Shown piece by piece: positions 7,169-53,912 of a stretch of 58,693 nucleotides of DNA. Within the stretch, counting starts at the first letter, position 1. Every line of letters begins with the position of its first letter. The position numbers and the translations under genes are program-made. Under the pieces are notes generated by a model that was not told the origin of the DNA, searched no databases, and worked only from the letters and a program-made list of their open reading frames with translations. This stretch comes from an uncultured Lachnospiraceae bacterium (GTDB lineage: Bacteria; Bacillota; Clostridia; Lachnospirales; Lachnospiraceae), in NCBI GenBank assembly GCA_947630485.1, contig CANRHU010000011.1, positions 1 to 58,693 on the forward strand. The letters run 5' to 3'.

Positions 7169-7773
7169 GATAGAACCTCCTCATAAAATTCTTCTCCTAG
7201 TCTATCATAGTCAGGACACAGAAATCAATGTGTATATGAAAATTTAAAACCGGTTATTTTGAGATGGGAGGGTCGGAGGTTCGGCCGGCCCTTCCCTGAC
7301 AGTCAAGTGATTTATCCAACCGCAGTTATTCCTTCATGGCATCACTCCTTCCCCTCGTGTCTCTTCGTGCTCTTTTTGAAGACCACATAATACAAAACGC
7401 AAAATTCGACAAAAAATAACACACTTTTCATGCACCGAAATCGGTTAATATCCGCGTCATTTTGTATTCTGCGGACGGATTGCTTCCATACAAACAAGGC
7501 GTCGATGGTGCCCTGCCCGCATGAAAATACAGCATATGCCGCTGACACCTTTCCTGCGGGGCTCTTTCCTGTATGGCTCTTTCCTGTATGGCTCTTTTCC
7601 TGCGGGGCTCTTTCCGCACGGTGCATGGAAATAAAAGCCGTCCCGGTTGACAGAAACCGCCCGGCAAACTATAATCATCTGGTAAGCAAAAACGCCCGGC
7701 CGGCCGAGAGGTCCGCGCCGCGGCCATCATTGGAAAACCATCATGGGAGAAATTTGAGAAAAGAGGACGTTCT
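7169..7773. other. Long intergenic region, repeat-rich, no supported gene
   Basis: Divergent spacer between metY and the DUF368 gene. Frames crossing it are composed of repeat-derived peptides and have no ribosome sites. It contains a member of the palindromic element family and a short minisatellite (see 7488-7627). Confidence 0.5.
7488..7627 (+). repeat. Palindromic element copy plus 15-base minisatellite
   Basis: 7488-7525 (ATACAAACAAGGCGTCGATG...) matches the window-wide hairpin element. 7531-7560 shares ATGCCGCTGACACC with the copy at 48365. From about 7556 a unit resembling GGCTCTTTCCTGTAT is repeated about five times in tandem. Confidence 0.6.
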
Positions 7774-8697: not shown

Positions 8698-8703
8698 ATT
8701 TCC

Positions 8704-8740
8704 ATGCAGAAAGGGTGACAGCGGCACGCTTTCTGTATTC
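8704..8740. repeat. Palindromic hairpin element copy
   Basis: The arms CAGAAAG and CTTTCTG flank a GC-rich core. The body (GGCACGCTTTCTGTATT) is nearly identical to the copy at 20078-20122. It lies between convergent genes and may also act as terminator for the zinc-ribbon gene. Confidence 0.6.
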
Positions 8741-8761: not shown

Positions 8762-9439
8762 TTATTCCCCGTAGGCTCCGCTCTTCACTTCGTCCGCGGC
8801 TTCCTCCGCCACCTCTGCGGCCGCTTCCACGGCTTTCTCAACAGCCTCCTCGACGGCTTCCGCCGCGGTCTCCGTCTCTTTCTCCAGAGATTCAGCGGTC
8901 TCCTCGACAATCTCCTCCGCGCCGCCGGCAAATTCCGCATCCGCAGCTTCCTCGACAATCTCTTCCTCAGCGCTTTCTTCCTCAGCGCTTTCTTCCTCGG
9001 CGCTTTCTTCCTCGGCGCTTTCTTCTTTAGCGCTTTCTTCCTCGACGCTCTCTTCTTCAGCGCTCTCTTCCCTGACAGGCTCCGGAGCCGCTGTGCCGCA
9101 CTTGCCGCAGAACTTATTTCCTTTTTTAATCACTGCCCCGCAGGAAGGACAAATCACGCTGCCATCCAGCTTGCGGACCTTATCCTGAAGCTCAGCCACC
9201 GCCGCCAGGCTCTTCGTGATCTCGTCCACGATGGACTGATACTCGCCGTCCGTGTCATTCTTATGGTTCTTGTAGTAAAGCTGTCCGATCGCCGCGTAAA
9301 GCGATTTCACCTTATTCTTCTCGGACGTAGCCTGCGCCTTCAGCTGCACGATCTCAGCCACATCCTTGGCCTTCTGGGCGGCCTCCTTGCCCTTGTCCGC
9401 CAAAGTCTTGCTGATATCGTCAAAGTCAATAAATGCCAT
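8762..9439 (-). CDS. Coiled-coil zinc-ribbon protein with acidic repeat tail
   Basis: A 225-residue soluble protein. Residues 1-95 are mostly charged helix (KGKEAAQKAKDVAEIVQLKA), likely a coiled coil. A zinc ribbon follows at about 97-117 (CPSC...CGKCG). The C-terminal half is Glu/Ser/Ala repeat (EESAEEESAEE) encoded by a 15-base tandem repeat. The N-terminal part plus zinc ribbon occurs in many Clostridia as an uncharacterised protein. A ribosome site AAGGGGG precedes the ATG. Function unknown; the acidic tail is probably disordered and variable in length between strains. Confidence 0.75.
   Translation of the reverse strand: MAFIDFDDISKTLADKGKEAAQKAKDVAEIVQLKAQATSEKNKVKSLYAAIGQLYYKNHKNDTDGEYQSIVDEITKSLAAVAELQDKVRKLDGSVICPSCGAVIKKGNKFCGKCGTAAPEPVREESAEEESVEEESAKEESAEEESAEEESAEEESAEEEIVEEAADAEFAGGAEEIVEETAESLEKETETAAEAVEEAVEKAVEAAAEVAEEAADEVKSGAYGE
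8958..9070 (-). repeat. 15-base in-frame tandem repeat (EESAE unit)
   Basis: A unit close to GCGCTTTCTTCCTCG is repeated about seven times. It encodes Glu-Glu-Ser-Ala-Glu on the minus strand. Because the unit is a multiple of three, copy-number change alters tail length without breaking the frame. Confidence 0.85.
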
Positions 9440-9598: not shown

Positions 9599-12127
9599 TT
9601 ATTTCCACAGTCCGTACTTCTGTTTTGTCTCCTCCGGAAGCTTCGTCAGATCGATCTCACAGTCCAGCTCCTCCGTCCACTGGCCGTTATATTCACCAGC
9701 TGCCGATTTCCGCGTACCGTTCCGGCGTATCCGCACAGTCACGTTCACTCCGTCAGCCAGGTTATCACGGTCATAATAATCGGAATTCATCCAGACGTAC
9801 TCCGAATAGACAAGCCCCGGCGCCAGCGCCCGGATGTCCTCCGGATCCTCATATTTTACCTCGTCTTTAAACTCCAGGGGCGTCTCCCTTATTGCCGGCA
9901 GCTCCTGGGCGGCCGGCAGTTCCTGAGCCTCTGACGCTGAGCTGTCCGCTGCCTCCGACACGTCTGCATCCGCCAAATCCTCGCCCACGTCATCTGCGGT
10001 TTCCGCTTCCGCAGCGTCTCCCTCTTCCGGCGCTTCTTCCGCCTCCGCAGCGTCTTCCTTTTCCGGCGCTTCTTCCGCCGCCTGACGGTATTTATCTCCG
10101 TAATAATAGATATCGATACCGACGATATCCTCATCCGCCAGCGTCCGGATCTCTGTCCCGGCCTCTTCAAGAAGCTTAAGGGTCCTCGTAAAGGACGGAT
10201 ACACCGGGTAGACGCAGCGCCCGGTCAAATCGTCAATAGCCGTCCACCGCTCAAGGCCGACCATTTCCTGAAGAATGCTGTTGTACCGAATGGCCTCCTC
10301 ATGGAGCTGGGTTCTAAACTGGATTGTTCCAATCGGAAGCTCATGTTCCATGGTGTCCGTCGTCAGATCCAGCATATCCTGCTTAAACGCCGCAAGCAAT
10401 GCCTCACGGCCCGCCGCGTCAAGCTCTACGGCGGCTCCGGTTCCGGACTGTATAGAGTAACCATCCCCGTCAAGCACCGCGGAAGCGCCGGCTTCGGAAC
10501 CATTCTGCATAAAGTAAACCGCTGCGGTCTCCTCCGCCGTCTGCTCCATAATCGGATAAAGCGCCTGCTTGTACTCCGGGCTTTCGACAATGGAGTTAAA
10601 CAATTCCCAGCTCTCGCCGCTTCTCTTTACATAATTATACTGGCGGTAGACCTGCCTGCCGCTTTTCAGCTTTACGCGCAGGTAGATCGTTTGATAATCC
10701 CGGTAAAAGGTATGATCGAAGCGTCTGAGTTTCTCCTGCTCCGCGGCGAGCCTTGCCAGCTCTGACACCGTATAGGCATCCGTCAGCTTCATATGCGTCA
10801 TGCGGTAATGATTGCCGAGGCCGTAACTCCAGACATAATGTCCGTCATATTCCTTGCCGGTGTCCATCAGAAACGACTCCACGTAATCGGAAGGGCTTCC
10901 CGCCTCCTCAAATTCTACGCTTCCGTAATCGACCCAGTCCTCCGCGTTCGGCGCGTAGACCGCCGCATCCACGATCTCATCCGCCTTCGGATACCAGCTG
11001 TCATAACCGAACAGATCGTAGTAGCCTCCTATATTAACCGCGATCGCAATGACGGCACAGATCACCAGCTGATAACGGTTGGCAAAAAGCTTGCGGAAAT
11101 CAAAATGATAAATGATCTCCATCAGACAGTGGGTCAGCAGCACGCCGCAGACCGTCCCGAATACCAGCCAGCCGACGCCTGTGACAAAGGATCCGAAGAA
11201 CATTCCGCCCGCTACCCCCACCGGAACCGCGATCAGAATCCGGATCACCGCCTTCGTCTTGTCGAAGGCCATAGCCCGGCCGGCCGCCTCCGATGCCCTG
11301 AGCCGGTACAGAGCGTAGGCAAGCAGTGCAAACGCCGCCGTTACCAGAAGCACCGGCAGGGCCCGCCACAGACTCCAGGTATTTTCCGTAAAATCATCCA
11401 GGGCAAAAATATAATTGCCGAGCGGAGACGTGTACCGCAAAAGCCGCATAAGAAGCTGATCCGCTCCTTCCGTGATTCCCATACCATAAATCCAGGTGCG
11501 GAAATTTGTCTCACAGAACACTTCTCCCAGGGCAGCCATGGCCGGCCCGTAGCCGAAGAATACGCCCGCCCCCAGAAGCGCCACCACCACATGGCCGGTC
11601 ATCATCATGGCGATGACCACGGTGGTGTAAATCAGACAGTAGTAGACCGAATTGATCAGCAGACTCTGCCACGGCAGGCTGCCGATCCGGTCAAGGCCGA
11701 TTCCCGCCGACAGAAGGAAGCAGACGGCCGCCGCCTGGGCCAACGCATAGCAGACAAGCGGCACCAGGATTCCATTCGCATATGCCGCCAAAAACAGCTG
11801 GCGGCGCTTCACCGGAATACTGTGGTAGAAATCCACCTTCTGCCGGTTATGCAGATACTGATATCCGCTGACCGCCCACAAAACCGCTGAGAGCACCAGG
11901 ATAACGATCACGGGAATATTAACCCAAAGAGCTTCCACAATGCGCTGTGTCTGCGAAAAACGCTGGGATATGGACATATCTGCCTGCTCCCTCACGAATT
12001 TGCTGCATCTCATGGCTATGGGAACGATCAGCGCAAACATCATGCTGACGATGCTCCAGGCGACCGTCCACAGCCTGCGCTTTAAATCCTCCCGCATCAG
12101 CTTAAAGCACAAGTTTCTTGATGTCAT
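9599..12127 (-). CDS. ABC transporter permease (DUF6449-type, YtrC/D-like)
   Basis: An 842-residue membrane protein using the ATG at 12127, which overlaps the 3' end of the ATPase gene by 26 bases. At least six hydrophobic segments lie in the first ~330 residues (for example MFALIVPIAM, IPVIVILVLSAVLWAVSGY). The motif FYHSIPVKRRQLF is typical of permeases paired with YtrB-type ATPases in Clostridia. A large extracytoplasmic or soluble C-terminal part follows. Near the end an acidic repeat (EEAPEEGDAAEAE, partly duplicated by a ~39-base repeat at about 10015-10080) interrupts otherwise normal sequence. Exported or sensed substrate unknown; related cassettes respond to envelope stress. Confidence 0.75.
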   Translation of the reverse strand: MTSRNLCFKLMREDLKRRLWTVAWSIVSMMFALIVPIAMRCSKFVREQADMSISQRFSQTQRIVEALWVNIPVIVILVLSAVLWAVSGYQYLHNRQKVDFYHSIPVKRRQLFLAAYANGILVPLVCYALAQAAAVCFLLSAGIGLDRIGSLPWQSLLINSVYYCLIYTTVVIAMMMTGHVVVALLGAGVFFGYGPAMAALGEVFCETNFRTWIYGMGITEGADQLLMRLLRYTSPLGNYIFALDDFTENTWSLWRALPVLLVTAAFALLAYALYRLRASEAAGRAMAFDKTKAVIRILIAVPVGVAGGMFFGSFVTGVGWLVFGTVCGVLLTHCLMEIIYHFDFRKLFANRYQLVICAVIAIAVNIGGYYDLFGYDSWYPKADEIVDAAVYAPNAEDWVDYGSVEFEEAGSPSDYVESFLMDTGKEYDGHYVWSYGLGNHYRMTHMKLTDAYTVSELARLAAEQEKLRRFDHTFYRDYQTIYLRVKLKSGRQVYRQYNYVKRSGESWELFNSIVESPEYKQALYPIMEQTAEETAAVYFMQNGSEAGASAVLDGDGYSIQSGTGAAVELDAAGREALLAAFKQDMLDLTTDTMEHELPIGTIQFRTQLHEEAIRYNSILQEMVGLERWTAIDDLTGRCVYPVYPSFTRTLKLLEEAGTEIRTLADEDIVGIDIYYYGDKYRQAAEEAPEKEDAAEAEEAPEEGDAAEAETADDVGEDLADADVSEAADSSASEAQELPAAQELPAIRETPLEFKDEVKYEDPEDIRALAPGLVYSEYVWMNSDYYDRDNLADGVNVTVRIRRNGTRKSAAGEYNGQWTEELDCEIDLTKLPEETKQKYGLWK

Positions 12128-13592: not shown

Positions 13593-13630
13593 TAACAGAA
13601 TTCTTACGTATTTATGAAGGGATGGAAACA

Positions 13631-13672
13631 ATACAAAAAACGCGTCACTGGCGCGTTTTTTGCATACTGACG
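13631..13672. repeat. Palindromic hairpin element copy
   Basis: AAAAAACGCG pairs with CGCGTTTTTT around TCACTGG, followed by GCATACTGACG. The structure could also terminate transcription in both directions. Confidence 0.75.
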
Positions 13673-17574: not shown

Positions 17575-17621
17575 GCCGGAAACGCGCCGCCGGCGTTCTT
17601 TTTCCTGTATGCTGAGACGGG

Positions 17622-17663
17622 ATACAAACAAAGCGTCACTGGCGCGTTGTTTGCATACTGACG
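17622..17663. repeat. Palindromic hairpin element copy
   Basis: ATACAAACAAAGCGTCACTG followed by GCGCGTTGTTTGCATACTGACG. Nearly identical to copies at 13631 and 48392. It sits 45 bases past the VanW stop and may terminate that gene. Confidence 0.75.
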
Positions 17664-20046: not shown

Positions 20047-20078
20047 AAGACCGCCGGGATGACCCGGCGGTCTTCTTT
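20047..20078 (+). terminator. Strong terminator of the Cys-rich miniprotein gene
   Basis: A perfect 12-bp stem, AAGACCGCCGGG with CCCGGCGGTCTT, a 4-base loop, then a T-rich tract. Confidence 0.85.
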
Positions 20079-20167
20079 ACGTCAGTATGCAGAAAGAGCG
20101 CTGGCGGCACGCTTTCTGTATTACGTCAGTATGCAAAAAACGCGCCAATGACGCTTCGTCTGTATTC
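20078..20167. repeat. Two head-to-tail palindromic hairpin elements
   Basis: Two adjacent units, each beginning TACGTCAGTATGCA and ending CTGTATT (20078-20122 and 20122-20167), in the opposite orientation to the copies at 13631 and 17622. Confidence 0.75.
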
Positions 20168-20430: not shown

Positions 20431-20820
20431 ATGAGCGAAGAATCCACCATAAAATTTACCGACTTCGATTATCTGACGGGCGACCATCATCTGCAGATGG
20501 TAAAGGCCGCCCTTCCATATGTTAATCTGCAGGGACAGCGCTTTCTCTCCATCCTTGTCAAATTTCAGGAGCTGCGCAGGACGATTGCGCTGTTTAACGG
20601 CGACGAGGCGTCAACCGTAGGCGTCATGTCCCTCGGAAACGCCGAGCGCCGCTCGCCGCTAGACATGCTGAACGCCATTCGCCCTTACGCGGATCCCCAG
20701 GACCAGGACTTCATCGACATGGTCTGCAACCTGATCGAAGGCCTGCGCATCGGCAGCCAGTATCAGCAGGAAATGATGATGCAGGAAGCGGCCGGTATGA
20801 CCCGCAGGAGGTGCGTGTGA
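20431..20820 (+). CDS. Conserved-looking hypothetical protein (129 aa), first of an overlapping pair
   Basis: Ribosome site GAGGCGG precedes the ATG. The protein is soluble and helical (MVKAALPYVNLQGQRFLSIL, PQDQDFIDMVCNLIEGLRIG) with no signal peptide and no recognised domain. It ends in Met/Gln/Arg-rich sequence. Its stop overlaps the start of the next gene by four bases, so the two products are probably made in fixed ratio and may interact. Function unknown. Confidence 0.65.
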   Translation: MSEESTIKFTDFDYLTGDHHLQMVKAALPYVNLQGQRFLSILVKFQELRRTIALFNGDEASTVGVMSLGNAERRSPLDMLNAIRPYADPQDQDFIDMVCNLIEGLRIGSQYQQEMMMQEAAGMTRRRCV

Positions 20821-21272
20821 ACGGCGGCCGGGGCGGCGAGCCCCGCGTCCGCGCCGCGGGCGGCAGCCGGAATGGTGAGTCCCGCGCCGCGGCTGCGGGC
20901 GGCAATCGAAACAGTGAGCCACGCGCCATGGGCAGCAGCCGAAACGGCAATCCCCACTCCGCGGCTGCGGGCGGCAGCTGGAAAGACGATCCGCGCGTCA
21001 AGGCCATGAACCCCCAGAAGGTTGCGTTTCTCACGGAGCTGGCCGCGCAGGTCGAACAGACGCCGCGCAGTCAGATCATGGGGCGTTTTCTCGCCATGAC
21101 GCTGGAAGCCGACCGGAAGGGAATCTCCTTCTCCGACCAGGAGACGGAGATTCTGGCCGGAATCCTGGCCGACTACATGGATCCGGCAGCCCGCGGGAAA
21201 ATAGACCTGCTCCGGATGCTCTCCCGGCGAATGGCCGCGGGAGCACGAAAGCGGCCGGACACCTCCGGATAG
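20817..21272 (+). CDS. Hypothetical protein with repetitive basic N-terminus (151 aa)
   Basis: The GTG at 20817 is chosen because AGGAGG (20805-20810) lies 6 bases ahead; the overlap with the previous stop is GTGA. Residues 1-60 are built from four imperfect ~13-residue units (EPRVRAAGGSRNG-like) rich in Gly, Arg, Asn and Ala. Residues 62-145 are an ordinary helical domain (AFLTELAAQVEQTPRSQIMG, ILAGILADYMDP). The two parts have clearly different character, as if a repeat tract had been added to a small conserved protein. No family recognised. Convergent with the cell-wall protein gene downstream. Confidence 0.6.
   Translation: MNGGRGGEPRVRAAGGSRNGESRAAAAGGNRNSEPRAMGSSRNGNPHSAAAGGSWKDDPRVKAMNPQKVAFLTELAAQVEQTPRSQIMGRFLAMTLEADRKGISFSDQETEILAGILADYMDPAARGKIDLLRMLSRRMAAGARKRPDTSG
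20833..20990 (+). repeat. In-frame ~39-base tandem repeats
   Basis: Units of about 39, 39, 33 and 39 bases sharing GCGGCTGCGGGCGGCA-type cores. They encode the repetitive N-terminus of the 151-residue protein. Confidence 0.7.
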
Positions 21273-21332: not shown

Positions 21333-22730
21333 TCAATGCGGTAGGATGGACGGGCCGACAGCCGCCGAAGGAGCTGGCGGCGAAACCGCAGCGCCGCCTG
21401 CCGCGGCCTGCCCTTTCTGCGCGCACACGCCCACCGAATCCACCTCATATCCGTCCGGAGTCGTCGCGGAGGCGTACATGGCGCCCAGCGGACGCTGTCC
21501 TTCGGTGGAGTCTTCCATCTGGCCGGTCGCCGGATTCCGTACTTTGACGGGCACAGGTTCCGTCAGGTTAAAATAGTACTGCTTGCCGTCTATCGTCTGC
21601 CAGCCCTTAACCATATCCCCGTTCGCGGATAAATAATACCAGTAACCGTTGCTGTAAAGCCACCCGGTCCGCATCTTTCCGTCTGTCTCTTCCAGGTAAT
21701 ACCACACGCCGTTCAAATCCAGCCAGCCTTTTTTCATGTGGCCGTCAGGCCGCAGGTAATACCAGGTAGTGCCGTCCAGATACCATCCCGTATTCATAAT
21801 CCCGTCCGCGCCGATATGATACCAGAGACCTTTTACATAGATCCAGGTATCCCTTGCGTAACTGCCGTAGAGCAGCTTATACCTCCAGCCGGCCTCCGTC
21901 AGCTCCCAGGTTCCGGCGACCTCCGCCGCTTCCTTCTGGGGACTCCGGTAAACGCCGCCCACGCCGCGGTTGGTAGGCCCAACGCCGCCTCCGCCGCTTC
22001 CGGCGAAACCGCCCAAACTGCTTCCCCAGCCGCTTCCACTTCCGCTTCCCCAGCCGCTTCCGCCTCCCCAGCTGCTTCCGCCGCTGCTTCCGCTACTGCT
22101 TCCGCCGCCGCTACTGCTTCCGCCCCCCCAGCTGCTTCCGCCGCTTCCGGAACTCTGCTGCTCCGTATAAAGCGTTACGGCGCTTTCCTGCACAAACGTA
22201 ATCTGACAAAGCTCGCCGTCCGCCACGATTTCCGCGCCTGCTATGACGGCCTGCAGTCCCGCGCTGCCGTCCGATACCTTCACGCGCAGCGTCCCCAGAC
22301 TGCAGATACTGGCCGGTTTCATGATTTCTCCCGTCCCGGCGATCACAAGCGTCACCAGACCGCGGTTCTCGTCATAAGCACATTCGCGGATCGCCGTTTT
22401 CCAGCTGCTGTCAAACGAAAACTCCGCCGACGTGACATTGGCCGGATCGGGACTGTCCAAAGCCACATTGACCTGAATCGCCGTGATCTCCCCAAGACCG
22501 CTCTGCTGCACCAGCTGAACGGACAGTTCCGCCTCTCCGTCCTTTGCTTTCCTCCAGGAGGCGGCCCCGCTCACATACCCGGCCTCGGTTCCGGCCTTCG
22601 CGGACAGCGGAAGAACGGTCAGTACCGCCGCCAGACAGAGGCCTGACGCGGCGGCCGCGGCAGCCAGCCGGCCGCACAGCCGGATACGGCGCGAAGCCGC
22701 CGCCATTTTCCTGCCGACAAACCCTCTCAT
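21333..22730 (-). CDS. Secreted choline-binding-repeat protein with cohesin-like N-terminal domain
   Basis: A 465-residue exported protein. The signal peptide covers residues 1-46 (hydrophobic core then LSAKA). Residues ~50-180 form a beta-rich domain (ITAIQVNVALDSPDPANVTS, SICSLGTLRVKV) resembling cohesin or related domains that bind dockerins; this call is by pattern and not certain. A Gly/Ser/Trp-rich linker (190-255) leads to several choline-binding repeats (about 290-395; GTTWYYLRPDGHMKKGW, GVWYYL, GYWYYLSANGDMVKGW) that attach the protein to the cell wall. It starts inside the stop codon of the upstream M60 peptidase gene (ATGA), which carries a dockerin-like repeat, so it probably anchors that enzyme to the surface. 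Confidence 0.75.
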   Translation of the reverse strand: MRGFVGRKMAAASRRIRLCGRLAAAAAASGLCLAAVLTVLPLSAKAGTEAGYVSGAASWRKAKDGEAELSVQLVQQSGLGEITAIQVNVALDSPDPANVTSAEFSFDSSWKTAIRECAYDENRGLVTLVIAGTGEIMKPASICSLGTLRVKVSDGSAGLQAVIAGAEIVADGELCQITFVQESAVTLYTEQQSSGSGGSSWGGGSSSGGGSSSGSSGGSSWGGGSGWGSGSGSGWGSSLGGFAGSGGGGVGPTNRGVGGVYRSPQKEAAEVAGTWELTEAGWRYKLLYGSYARDTWIYVKGLWYHIGADGIMNTGWYLDGTTWYYLRPDGHMKKGWLDLNGVWYYLEETDGKMRTGWLYSNGYWYYLSANGDMVKGWQTIDGKQYYFNLTEPVPVKVRNPATGQMEDSTEGQRPLGAMYASATTPDGYEVDSVGVCAQKGQAAAGGAAVSPPAPSAAVGPSILPH

Positions 22731-48283: not shown

Positions 48284-48364
48284 AGGAGAGGCCGCTCCGC
48301 CCACACTTATTCCATTCCAATCACAGCGCCCCTGCTCCGCGGGCTCGTCCGACGCTTCGGAAGC

Positions 48365-48434
48365 ATGCCGCTGACACCCTTTCTGCATGGAAATATGAAC
48401 AAAGCGTCACTGGCGCGTTTTTTGCATACTGACG
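48365..48434. repeat. Palindromic hairpin element copy with 5' partial unit
   Basis: 48392-48434 carries AAAGCGTCACTGGCGCGTTT and the TTGCATACTGACG end, as at 17622. Immediately before it, ATGCCGCTGACACCCTTTCT repeats sequence also present near 7533. It lies after the AraC gene and may terminate it. Confidence 0.75.
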
Positions 48435-52472: not shown

Positions 52473-53912
52473 ATGAAATTTACTAAATGCAGCGGGTTAC
52501 GCGGAGAGGTTATTGTGCCGGGGGACAAGTCGATTTCCCATCGCAGCGTCATGTTCGGGGCGATTGCGAAAGGAACGACCGAAGTCCGCCATTACCTTCA
52601 GGGGGCAGACTGCCTGTCCACCATCTCCTGCTTCCAAAAGATGGGCATCGATATCACAAATAACGGCGGCACCGTGCTGATCCACGGCAAAGGTTTGCGC
52701 GGGCTTTCACGTCCGGCCGGCGTCCTGGACTGCGGAAACAGCGGAACCACCACGCGGCTGATTTCCGGGATTCTTTCCGCTCAGGATTTCGACGTGACGC
52801 TGTCCGGCGACGCCTCGATCCAAAAGCGTCCGATGAAACGGATCATCGATCCCCTGTCAAAAATGGGGGCGCAGATCACAAGCCTCAACGGCAACGGCTG
52901 CGCTCCGCTCCGGATCAGCGGCCGGAAACTGCACGGTATCTCCTACACATCGCAGGTTGCTTCCGCGCAGGTGAAATCGGCGATCCTGCTGGCCGGGCTT
53001 TATGCGGACGGGGAAACGCGGGTGACCGAACCCTATCTTTCAAGAAATCACAGCGAGATCATGCTGCGCTATTTTGGGGCAGATGTGCGGACAGAACCGG
53101 CGCGGAAAGCGCCGGCTGCCGGAATCACGGTGCGACCGGCGCGGGAAGCGCTGACCGCCCCCGGCCGGTCAAATCAGGCCGGCGTCACCGCCGTCATACA
53201 GCCGGCCGACGAGCTTACCGGCAATCTGATCGAGGTTCCCGGCGACATCTCCTCCGCCGCGTTCTTCCTCTGCGCCGGACTGATGATCCCGCACTCAGAG
53301 ATTCTGCTGCGGAACGTAGGCATCAACCCGACGCGGGCCGGGATTCTCGCCGTCGCGAAGGACATGGGCGGTGATATTTCCTTATTGAATACAAACGGTG
53401 CGTCACCGGCGCTTTCTTCGCATGGAAATACAATCGGAGCGTCACCGGCGCTCCGCTCGCGTGGAAACGAAAGCGCCGGCTCCGGAGAGCCGACGGCCGA
53501 CATTTTGGTGCGTTCTTCCGCGCTTCACGGCACGGTCATCGAGGGCGCCGCCATACCGACGCTGATCGACGAACTGCCGATGATCGCGGCAATGGCATGC
53601 TTCGCGGAAGGCACCACGGTTATCCGCGACGCTGCGGAACTAAAAGTAAAGGAATCCAACCGCATCGCCGTCATGACGGAGAATCTGACCGCTATGGGCG
53701 CCGATGTCACCGAAACCGCGGACGGAATGATTATCCGCGGCGGAAAACCTCTGCACGGCGCCGTCGTCGACAGCCATCTCGATCACCGCATCGCTATGAC
53801 ATTCGCCGTCGCCGGCTTATGCGCCGAAGGCGAAACCGAAATCCGCGGCGCGGAATGCGTAAATATCTCCTATCCGCAGTTTTATGAGGACCTGACGCGG
53901 CTGATGCGGTAA
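52473..53912 (+). CDS. aroA: 3-Phosphoshikimate 1-carboxyvinyltransferase (EPSP synthase) with two in-frame insertions
   Basis: A 479-residue EPSP synthase, about 50 residues longer than the usual ~430. Active-site motifs are intact: GDKSISHRSVMFGAIA, CGNSGTTTRLISG, SAQVKSAILLAGLY, DELPMIAAMA and KESNRI. The extra length comes from two tracts: about residues 207-245 (PARKAPAAG, VRPAREALTAPG) and 306-331 (GASPALSSHGN, GASPALRSRGN). The second tract is encoded by two tandem copies of the intergenic palindromic element. Both tracts fall between strands of the second half-barrel, so the enzyme may still be active. AAGGAGG precedes the ATG. Last gene of the operon; the stop is 5 bases from the convergent kinase gene. 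Confidence 0.93.
   Translation: MKFTKCSGLRGEVIVPGDKSISHRSVMFGAIAKGTTEVRHYLQGADCLSTISCFQKMGIDITNNGGTVLIHGKGLRGLSRPAGVLDCGNSGTTTRLISGILSAQDFDVTLSGDASIQKRPMKRIIDPLSKMGAQITSLNGNGCAPLRISGRKLHGISYTSQVASAQVKSAILLAGLYADGETRVTEPYLSRNHSEIMLRYFGADVRTEPARKAPAAGITVRPAREALTAPGRSNQAGVTAVIQPADELTGNLIEVPGDISSAAFFLCAGLMIPHSEILLRNVGINPTRAGILAVAKDMGGDISLLNTNGASPALSSHGNTIGASPALRSRGNESAGSGEPTADILVRSSALHGTVIEGAAIPTLIDELPMIAAMACFAEGTTVIRDAAELKVKESNRIAVMTENLTAMGADVTETADGMIIRGGKPLHGAVVDSHLDHRIAMTFAVAGLCAEGETEIRGAECVNISYPQFYEDLTRLMR
53389..53465 (+). repeat. Two tandem palindromic elements inside the aroA coding region
   Basis: Copies at 53389-53426 and 53427-53465 share AATACAA, GCGTCACCGGCGC and CG(C/T)GTGGA- or GCATGGA-type ends with the intergenic family. 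Lengths of 38 and 39 bases, plus flanks, keep the frame open. Confidence 0.8.

Follow-up and report, generated by a model that had tools for sequence, protein, structure and literature searches.

The aroA gene of a Lachnospiraceae bacterium carries an in-frame tract of palindromic sequence, raising the question of where this sequence came from and how it entered a conserved enzyme. The gene lies at 52473..53912 on the plus strand of the 58,693-nucleotide stretch of DNA that was analysed (the window) and encodes an EPSP synthase of 479 aa, as judged from the ORF, a match to Pfam PF00275 (E 2.2e-117) and the predicted fold. Within it is an in-frame insert of exactly 78 bp, or 2 x 39 bp (53388..53465, plus strand; placement ambiguous by up to 2 bp with a shared AA), bearing out the preliminary description in which two in-frame units had been recognised inside the gene. 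Both units are of type I (see below) and 39 bp long, unit 1 (53388..53426, plus strand) encoding TNGASPALSSHGN and having arms that are only partly paired, and unit 2 (53427..53465, plus strand) encoding TIGASPALRSRGN. The tract is best read, with a probability of about 0.8, as a double copy of a mobile, non-autonomous hairpin element with a 39-bp unit.

Protein alignment placed the 26 extra residues (TNGASPALSSHGN TIGASPALRSRGN) between LLN and ESAGSGEP in the window AroA alone, the encoded peptide being absent from all 20 aligned congeneric AroA proteins, and in the search of 26 genus genomes residues 308-331 were covered by no reported match in the 25 others. The two flanks were mapped separately to 20 genus loci, two of which were unmappable, and the 18/18 loci with both flanks mapped gave a 0-bp gap at the orthologous site, a value extrapolated across as many as 43 unaligned bases on either side of the junction. 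The relatives are without the tract, in keeping with the earlier statement that normal EPSP synthases lack it, and the conclusion that a dispersed palindromic element inserted here in a lineage-specific event is supported. All genomes are draft assemblies, and the aroA insert is seen at the level of the assembly. In a structure model of AroA (44 sequences; mean pLDDT 87), the core and the strands on both sides of the insert were confident and the predicted fold matched solved EPSP synthases, with insert residues 307-336 falling below pLDDT 50, such that the insert as modelled would fit a disordered loop tolerated by the enzyme.

AroA has a second variable loop (site B; 53090..53200, plus strand), at which the model is of low confidence at residues 212-221 and 223-234. 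The length of this loop is hypervariable among the element-bearing species and its sequence is mostly low-complexity, a recognisable unit (KASLAPCSHGN) being present only in the congener G014. Separately, the AroA of a more distant Lachnospiraceae bacterium (L104) has a 26-residue insertion near residue 64, in a different loop, that does not visibly resemble the unit.

A weight-matrix scan of the window identified nine units, beginning at 7487, 8701, 13630, 17621, 20084, 20128, 48392, 53388 and 53427, and the same scan of three shuffled windows identified none; the matrix was built from the same 35 sequences as the covariance model (see below). The intergenic copies reported earlier are real, those near 20078 and 20122 being on the minus strand as a head-to-tail array of two units with the 44-bp period of the type II linker (20084..20166), although the earlier list had missed a minus-strand type I unit of the AGAAAGC arm class detected by the weight matrix (8701..8739) and had included a copy at 7487 that proved weak, a degenerate unit with a weight-matrix score of 32 (7487..7525, plus strand). 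Plus-strand units with a type II tail lie at 13630..13668 (tail ACTGACG) and 17621..17659, both found by covariance model and weight matrix, and at 48392..48430, found by the weight matrix and having mixed arms (GAACAAA with AAAAAAC). The exact 39-mer of the unit at 13630..13668 is present nine times in the fetched DNA of the same genome, and a half-unit-like stretch at 48361-48395 adjoins the unit at 48392..48430. No Rfam match was found within the window. Short-period repeats with steps of 12-18, 15 or 39-72 bp were also observed at 8917-9096, 9979-10082, 20811-20993 and 21988-22163, none of which visibly resembles the hairpin units.

The 39-bp unit has the structure AA-TAC-arm-GCGTCACTGGCGC-arm'-GCAT-GGA. 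There are at least 90 exact matches to the core in the genome from which the window derives (the own genome), and a covariance model built from 35 units gave 175 matches there, of which the 150 listed group into 114 arrays. With this model aroA unit 1 scored 1.1e-13 and unit 2 scored 1.1e-14, E-values that are not independent since both units are among the 35 training sequences. The genome thus has many further copies of the element outside aroA, and the profile scan suggested in the preliminary description extends the family to the relatives, with 84-137 matches in 10 of the 26 genus genomes, 4-16 in five and 0-2 in 11, under stricter filters than those behind the own-genome count of 175. Among 35 genomes outside the genus, five had 1-5 weak matches, and in a wider draw of 397 family genomes eight genomes of other genera had 1-3 weak matches (E 1e-6 or better). 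High copy number within the genus with few and weak matches outside it indicates that the element is a clade-restricted amplification.

For the anatomy of the unit, the fetched own-genome DNA supplied 128 arrays with 186 units in all, a sample that favours units with the exact core since the first loci were located by that sequence. AATAC at the left end and the core of 13 bases are conserved, while the arms vary, with 63 distinct left arms and 162 distinct units. The arms vary yet co-vary: 54/162 distinct units show full pairing across the eight outer columns, where shuffling gave a mean of 15.3 and at most 25, and there are 57 two-sided covariation cells against 24.1 in shuffled data, none of 500 shuffles reaching as high. 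The stem model has 15 pairs, and near the base of the stem most units retain an A facing a C. Two tails are found, type I (GCATGGA; 116 units) with a 39-bp period and type II (GCATACTGACGT; 49 units) with a 44-bp period, the tail being ambiguous in 21/186 units. Self-comparison of the fetched own-genome DNA revealed no larger parent element, in that among the matches listed there was no long repeat flanking units, only arrays and gene paralogues; pairs at or above 99.9% identity (overlapping loci) were left out, such that an exact long repeat could escape. Two imperfect palindromes of about 220-250 bp were observed at L010:1033-1253 and L238:1770-2019, parts of the two loci being about 70% similar to each other.

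Comparison of filled and empty sites allowed an insertion rule to be read from four clean junctions, X-AA-Y becoming X-AA-TAC...GGA-AA-Y, with insertion at AA, a 2-bp repeat or none, and placement ambiguous within the A run. In aroA the target is TTG-AA-C/T, with a clean empty counterpart, while in LacZ it is GCG-AA-C, empty in 7/7 mapped genomes. An ABC-F gene holds the insert in the own genome, G011 and G014 at the target GGAA-AA-TAC, with none in G001, G017 and G021, and an intergenic 83-bp array in G018 corresponds to an empty site in G012 (GTGA-AA-TAA) with flanks 97-98% identical. There are two exceptions, both read by eye: the site B unit in the G014 aroA gene, which lies between 8-bp near-repeats, lacks its 5' end and adds a net 42 bp, and a G008 gene-end array between 16-bp near-repeats. 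No clean junction could be read for the M56 gene (event 42) or for several of the intergenic sites, which were left out of the rule count. Across 123 arrays the left flanks are almost featureless (0.22 bits or less) up to AATAC, where the boundary is sharp. The right flanks of type I arrays begin with AATAC in 28/69 cases, about 2 being expected from a background in which TAC follows AA in about 2.7%, and with AATA in 43/69; the AATAC at these right flanks may in part be remnants of older units. At one orthologous site (L163:3240-3278 and L164:4520-4558) a well-paired unit is present in both G014 and G008 with different arms, which suggests conversion or replacement.

A unit of 39 bp corresponds to 13 codons and, counting codons wholly inside the insert, the 116 type I units are open in 114, 115, 110, 114, 115 and 35 cases in the six frames, so that with five of six frames stop-free an insertion into a gene is survivable. 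The 44-bp type II differs in having two forward frames blocked in 49/49 units when the consensus tail is added to each. That the element occurs both between genes and in frame within them, as first claimed from the window, holds across the fetched own-genome DNA, where 8/128 arrays are in frame in coding ORFs: AroA, ZnuA, LacZ, a second GH2 enzyme, a GNAT acetyltransferase, ABC-F, a BlaR1-like M56 protein and one ORF with no Pfam match. The relatives add AroA site B (G014), SpoIIP (G012), a GH2-like protein (G018), a short partial ORF in G014 that is the weakest case, and a protein of 257-296 residues (see below), giving 13 candidate sites in total in four frames, with AroA hit at two loops in two species. 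The forward frame (NTNxASLALxSHGN) is used at eight of these, reverse phase 1 at three, and reverse phase 2 and forward phase 2 at one each; exact 39- or 78-bp empty orthologous sites were found for three of the 13. Strict classification of the 128 own-genome arrays gave four in-frame and one apparent frameshift case, the looser one giving the eight in-frame arrays, with the frameshift case (L225) consisting of two opposed units. The coding model used ranked the true frame best in 97.4% of training windows (training ORFs) and replaced one at 86.5%. In the own-genome LacZ (L012) further repeat-like loop expansions were noted, for example NADTAQG repeats and an AAGT-rich stretch, and loops seem prone to expansion in this lineage.

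The gene predictor placed 10/128 arrays inside a predicted gene and left seven unplaced. Predicted coding DNA makes up about 84% of the array-bearing own-genome loci (313,155/373,085 bp) and only 8-10/128 arrays are in genes, a comparison that is indicative only since the loci were chosen around units. The 111 placed intergenic arrays lie in 66 tandem, 32 convergent and 13 divergent gaps, against 102, 38 and 27 respectively for reference gaps of at least 60 bp in the same loci, such that the shift of arrays to 3' gene ends is modest; in tandem gaps 47/66 arrays are nearer the 3' end of the upstream gene.

The gene for the 257-296 residue protein, which had no Pfam match in the two copies tested, has a tract of 39 bp in G021, 78 bp in G001, G011 and G014, 117 bp in G018 and 156 bp in G003, between flanks that are 91-97% identical. 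Recognised units number 2, 2, 2, 2 and 3 in G001, G011, G014, G018 and G003 (L365:6336-6414, L368:7993-8071, L369:12401-12479, L366:11788-11866 and L370:2297-2414, with an orthologue in L363), the 39-bp tract of G021 not being recognised as a unit by the scan. The tract has thus grown or shrunk by 13 residues at a time.

Of 36 pairs of adjacent units among the own-genome matches listed, 35 share one orientation, with a spacing of 39 in 25 and 44 in six; an opposed pair is also seen in L225. Neighbours are on average identical at 27.83/39 positions (53 pairs) against 27.89 for random pairs, and the closest relative of a unit is in its own array for only 6/107 units with array mates. Growth by slippage would give look-alike neighbours, and since neighbours are not alike arrays seem to have grown by repeated targeted insertion, although the random-level similarity could also result from ectopic gene conversion or from the movement of ready-made arrays. 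Local duplication was rejected as the source of arrays, being unsupported by neighbour similarity with gene conversion as a caveat, as were recurrent ready-made pairs, the commonest ordered pair occurring three times as by chance (mean 2.81). For aroA, where the two units differ and array neighbours are generally not local duplicates, the earlier suggestion that the element inserted twice is plausible and a single insertion of a ready-made pair is possible. Of the poorly paired units 21/53 join two arms that each also occur in well-paired units, a pattern that recombination at the shared core, shrinking arrays, would be expected to leave.

These observations can be assembled into a mechanism in which an enzyme acting in trans, possibly a single-strand transposase of IS200/IS605 type, would carry the hairpin to a short target resembling (G)TATT / AATA(C). 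The end of the unit (..GGA-AA) would recreate the target such that an inserted unit is itself a new target, and because the unit ends in target-like sequence arrays would grow head to tail via new insertions, shrinking in turn through recombination at the shared core. Most insertions in genes would be purged by selection, with the survivors being those of the 39-bp type in flexible loops and a tolerable frame, giving loop extensions of 13 or 26 residues. The unit-derived extensions would as such be tolerated additions, any benefit to the host protein being hypothetical. In its full form, a self-targeting 13-codon hairpin, open in five of the six reading frames, would be carried in trans by a single-strand transposase and would add 13-residue loop blocks clade-wide, with in-gene copy number ratcheting up and down by 13 residues; this form of the scheme is put forward as a speculative one.

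No enzyme tracking the copy number of the element was found among PF01797 and RVT_1 proteins. PF01797 was found in 10/26 genus genomes and was absent from 6/10 element-rich ones, RVT_1 was absent from two of the 10 element-rich genomes, one of them 98% complete, and in the own genome the sole Y1 hit was one broken IS200-type fragment. One IS200-like element (protein beginning MANKANDLAHTKWMCKYHIVFTPKY) could nonetheless mobilise the units in trans, its TnpA cutting the GTATT end of the unit; this is a possible rather than a probable source of activity, which would supply one candidate enzyme for the mobile hairpin reading, without contradicting it, and would make the units its non-autonomous passengers. 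In the Y1 loci fetched, which are part of those with PF01797 matches in the genus genomes, a unit adjoins 4/6 copies of this family (protein start MANKANDLAHTKW, at least 81% identity). All three intact copies are near a unit, at 0 bp in L144 (G007) and L147 (G011) and 44 bp in L146 (G014), and in the broken own-genome copy (L031, C33) a unit lies 7 bp after GTATT. The IS200-like element starts after GTATT (L144, L147) or GTTTT (L146), and the boundary of the unit on that strand is also GTATT, the complementary AATAC being that which opens many type I right flanks. Against this, two further copies in G007, one partial (L154) and one broken (L157), lie in loci of 3.2-3.4 kb that contain no unit, and inspection of the aligned IS ends of the three intact copies revealed no sequence in common with the units; the less similar Y1 loci L153 and L160 in element-rich genomes likewise have no adjoining unit. 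The absence of any PF01797 match from six of the ten element-rich drafts also counts against it, although multi-copy IS are often lost from draft bins. The L144 copy lies inside the linker of a unit array with no target duplication, which indicates that the IS200-like element can use units as targets, and since insertion sequences that target REPs are known, as described in the part of that literature available (PMC1525189), the association may be one of target use alone. The shared GTATT boundary makes trans-mobilisation the most attractive testable idea, albeit one held with considerable reserve.

It is also conceivable, if somewhat doubtful, that no dedicated enzyme is involved and that units spread when replication switches template or through ectopic recombination between short homologous stretches, the arms being reshuffled by gene conversion. 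The orthologous site in G014 and G008 at which well-paired units differ in their arms, the poorly paired units that join two arms known from well-paired ones and the two targets that already held an AATAC-like sequence are all in keeping with this. However, a target such as GCG-AA-C provides no more than 2-3 bp of homology, and the left boundaries of the 123 arrays are sharp at AATAC.

A canonical REP/RAYT system, with the unit as a REP moved by a REP-associated tyrosine transposase, is improbable. The unit resembles REPs in being a short palindrome in high copy, mostly near 3' gene ends with some copies in genes, compared with the portion of the REP account available (PMC3733652), but all 6 tested Y1 proteins score 141-161 bits with the IS200 model (cut-off 55) and no more than 39.4 with the RAYT model (cut-off 80). 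The terminal GTAG is absent and a CGTC motif is limited to the type II tail, while the dominant head-to-tail arrangement is absent, under-represented or negligible in REP families as far as excerpts of the published accounts describe them. A RAYT was rejected as mobiliser on the broken IS200-type fragment, the lack of tracking by PF01797 and the IS200 type of the Y1 proteins, with absence from draft genomes not being final. Retrotransposition-like copying by target-primed reverse transcription, which predicts 5' truncation and variable target duplications, is more improbable still; the 5'-truncated G014 aroA copy between 8-bp near-repeats and the G008 copy with 16-bp near-repeats would suit it, but at the four junctions that are better defined any repeat beyond target-supplied sequence is no longer than 2 bp, and two element-rich genomes have no RVT_1 match, including the 98% complete one. 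A reverse transcriptase was likewise rejected as mobiliser, RVT_1 not tracking copy number. That the tract is an assembly artefact or ordinary low-complexity expansion of an AroA loop is scarcely credible, for although the assemblies are drafts and the site B loop of these species is hypervariable, the tract is an exact in-frame multiple of 39 bp, covariation is family-wide and the same ABC-F insert is present in three separate assemblies.

Palindromes that lie in frame within coding sequence are best known from Rickettsia and some REP-rich bacteria. In the amplified family of gut Lachnospiraceae described here, filled sites can be set cleanly against empty ones, some insertions are shared and others private, and in one gene the tract ranges from 39 to 156 bp across six related genomes. 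Such sites make three questions testable, namely what moves short palindromes that have no RAYT, how tandem arrays originate and whether conserved enzymes gain new loop sequence from mobile hairpins. In the literature searched, which misses most subscription journals, no description of such an element in Lachnospiraceae was found, in agreement with the preliminary description.

The likeness to Rickettsia palindromic elements (RPEs) that had been proposed holds as an analogy, both being in-frame coding palindromes, and not as membership. In the part of the account available, the first-described RPE is about 150 bp long with nearly half of the copies in genes (PMC10969869). The present units share with RPEs the character of selfish palindromes found between genes and in frame within unrelated genes, a likeness drawn from their description, and differ in being 39 or 44 bp long, in having 8/128 arrays in frame in genes and in their head-to-tail order. 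The tagged REPs, comprising GTAG and CGTC families including Rickettsia RPE-4/RPE-6 and Neisseria dRS3 (Di Nocera et al., 2013; PMC3733652), are closer published relatives than the first-described RPEs. According to the sections of that paper available, these are palindromes of 20-40 bp in high copy, mostly intergenic near 3' gene ends and with complementary variation of the arms, some units or groups within genes encode 20-30 residues, and the CGTC families are without a known transposase. The unit described here is likewise a palindrome of 20-40 bp in high copy with a covarying stem, mostly intergenic near 3' ends with some copies in genes. In contrast, it has no terminal GTAG and its type I tail (116/186 units) also has no CGTC, the type II tail (49 units) having CGTC three bases from the stem on the other strand. 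Its stem of 15 pairs compares with 8-9 (CGTC) or mostly 6-9 (GTAG) in the portion of the REP account available, unit pairs are head-to-tail (35/36) whereas REP dimers are mainly head-head or tail-tail, and the host group differs, Firmicutes and Clostridi being absent from the main text of PMC3733652.

As in the REPIN/RAYT and TnpA-REP systems, the hairpin may be moved in trans and has a conserved stem mismatch (the A opposite C near the base), REPs of E. coli having two conserved stem mismatches in the excerpt available (PMC8266576); unlike REPIN/RAYT there is a single palindrome in place of two inverted REPs, no GTAG and no RAYT was found in the genomes searched. The unit resembles IS200/IS605 elements in its hairpins and may also do so in inserting 3' of a short fixed target with little or no target duplication, given four clean junctions and two exceptions, and one IS200-like family shares its GTATT boundary (two of three intact copies, with GTTTT in the third), but it has no tnpA of its own and by inspection no similarity to the IS ends. 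Lacking their usual tag, dimer arrangement and RAYT, the unit nonetheless works like the REP and RPE elements.
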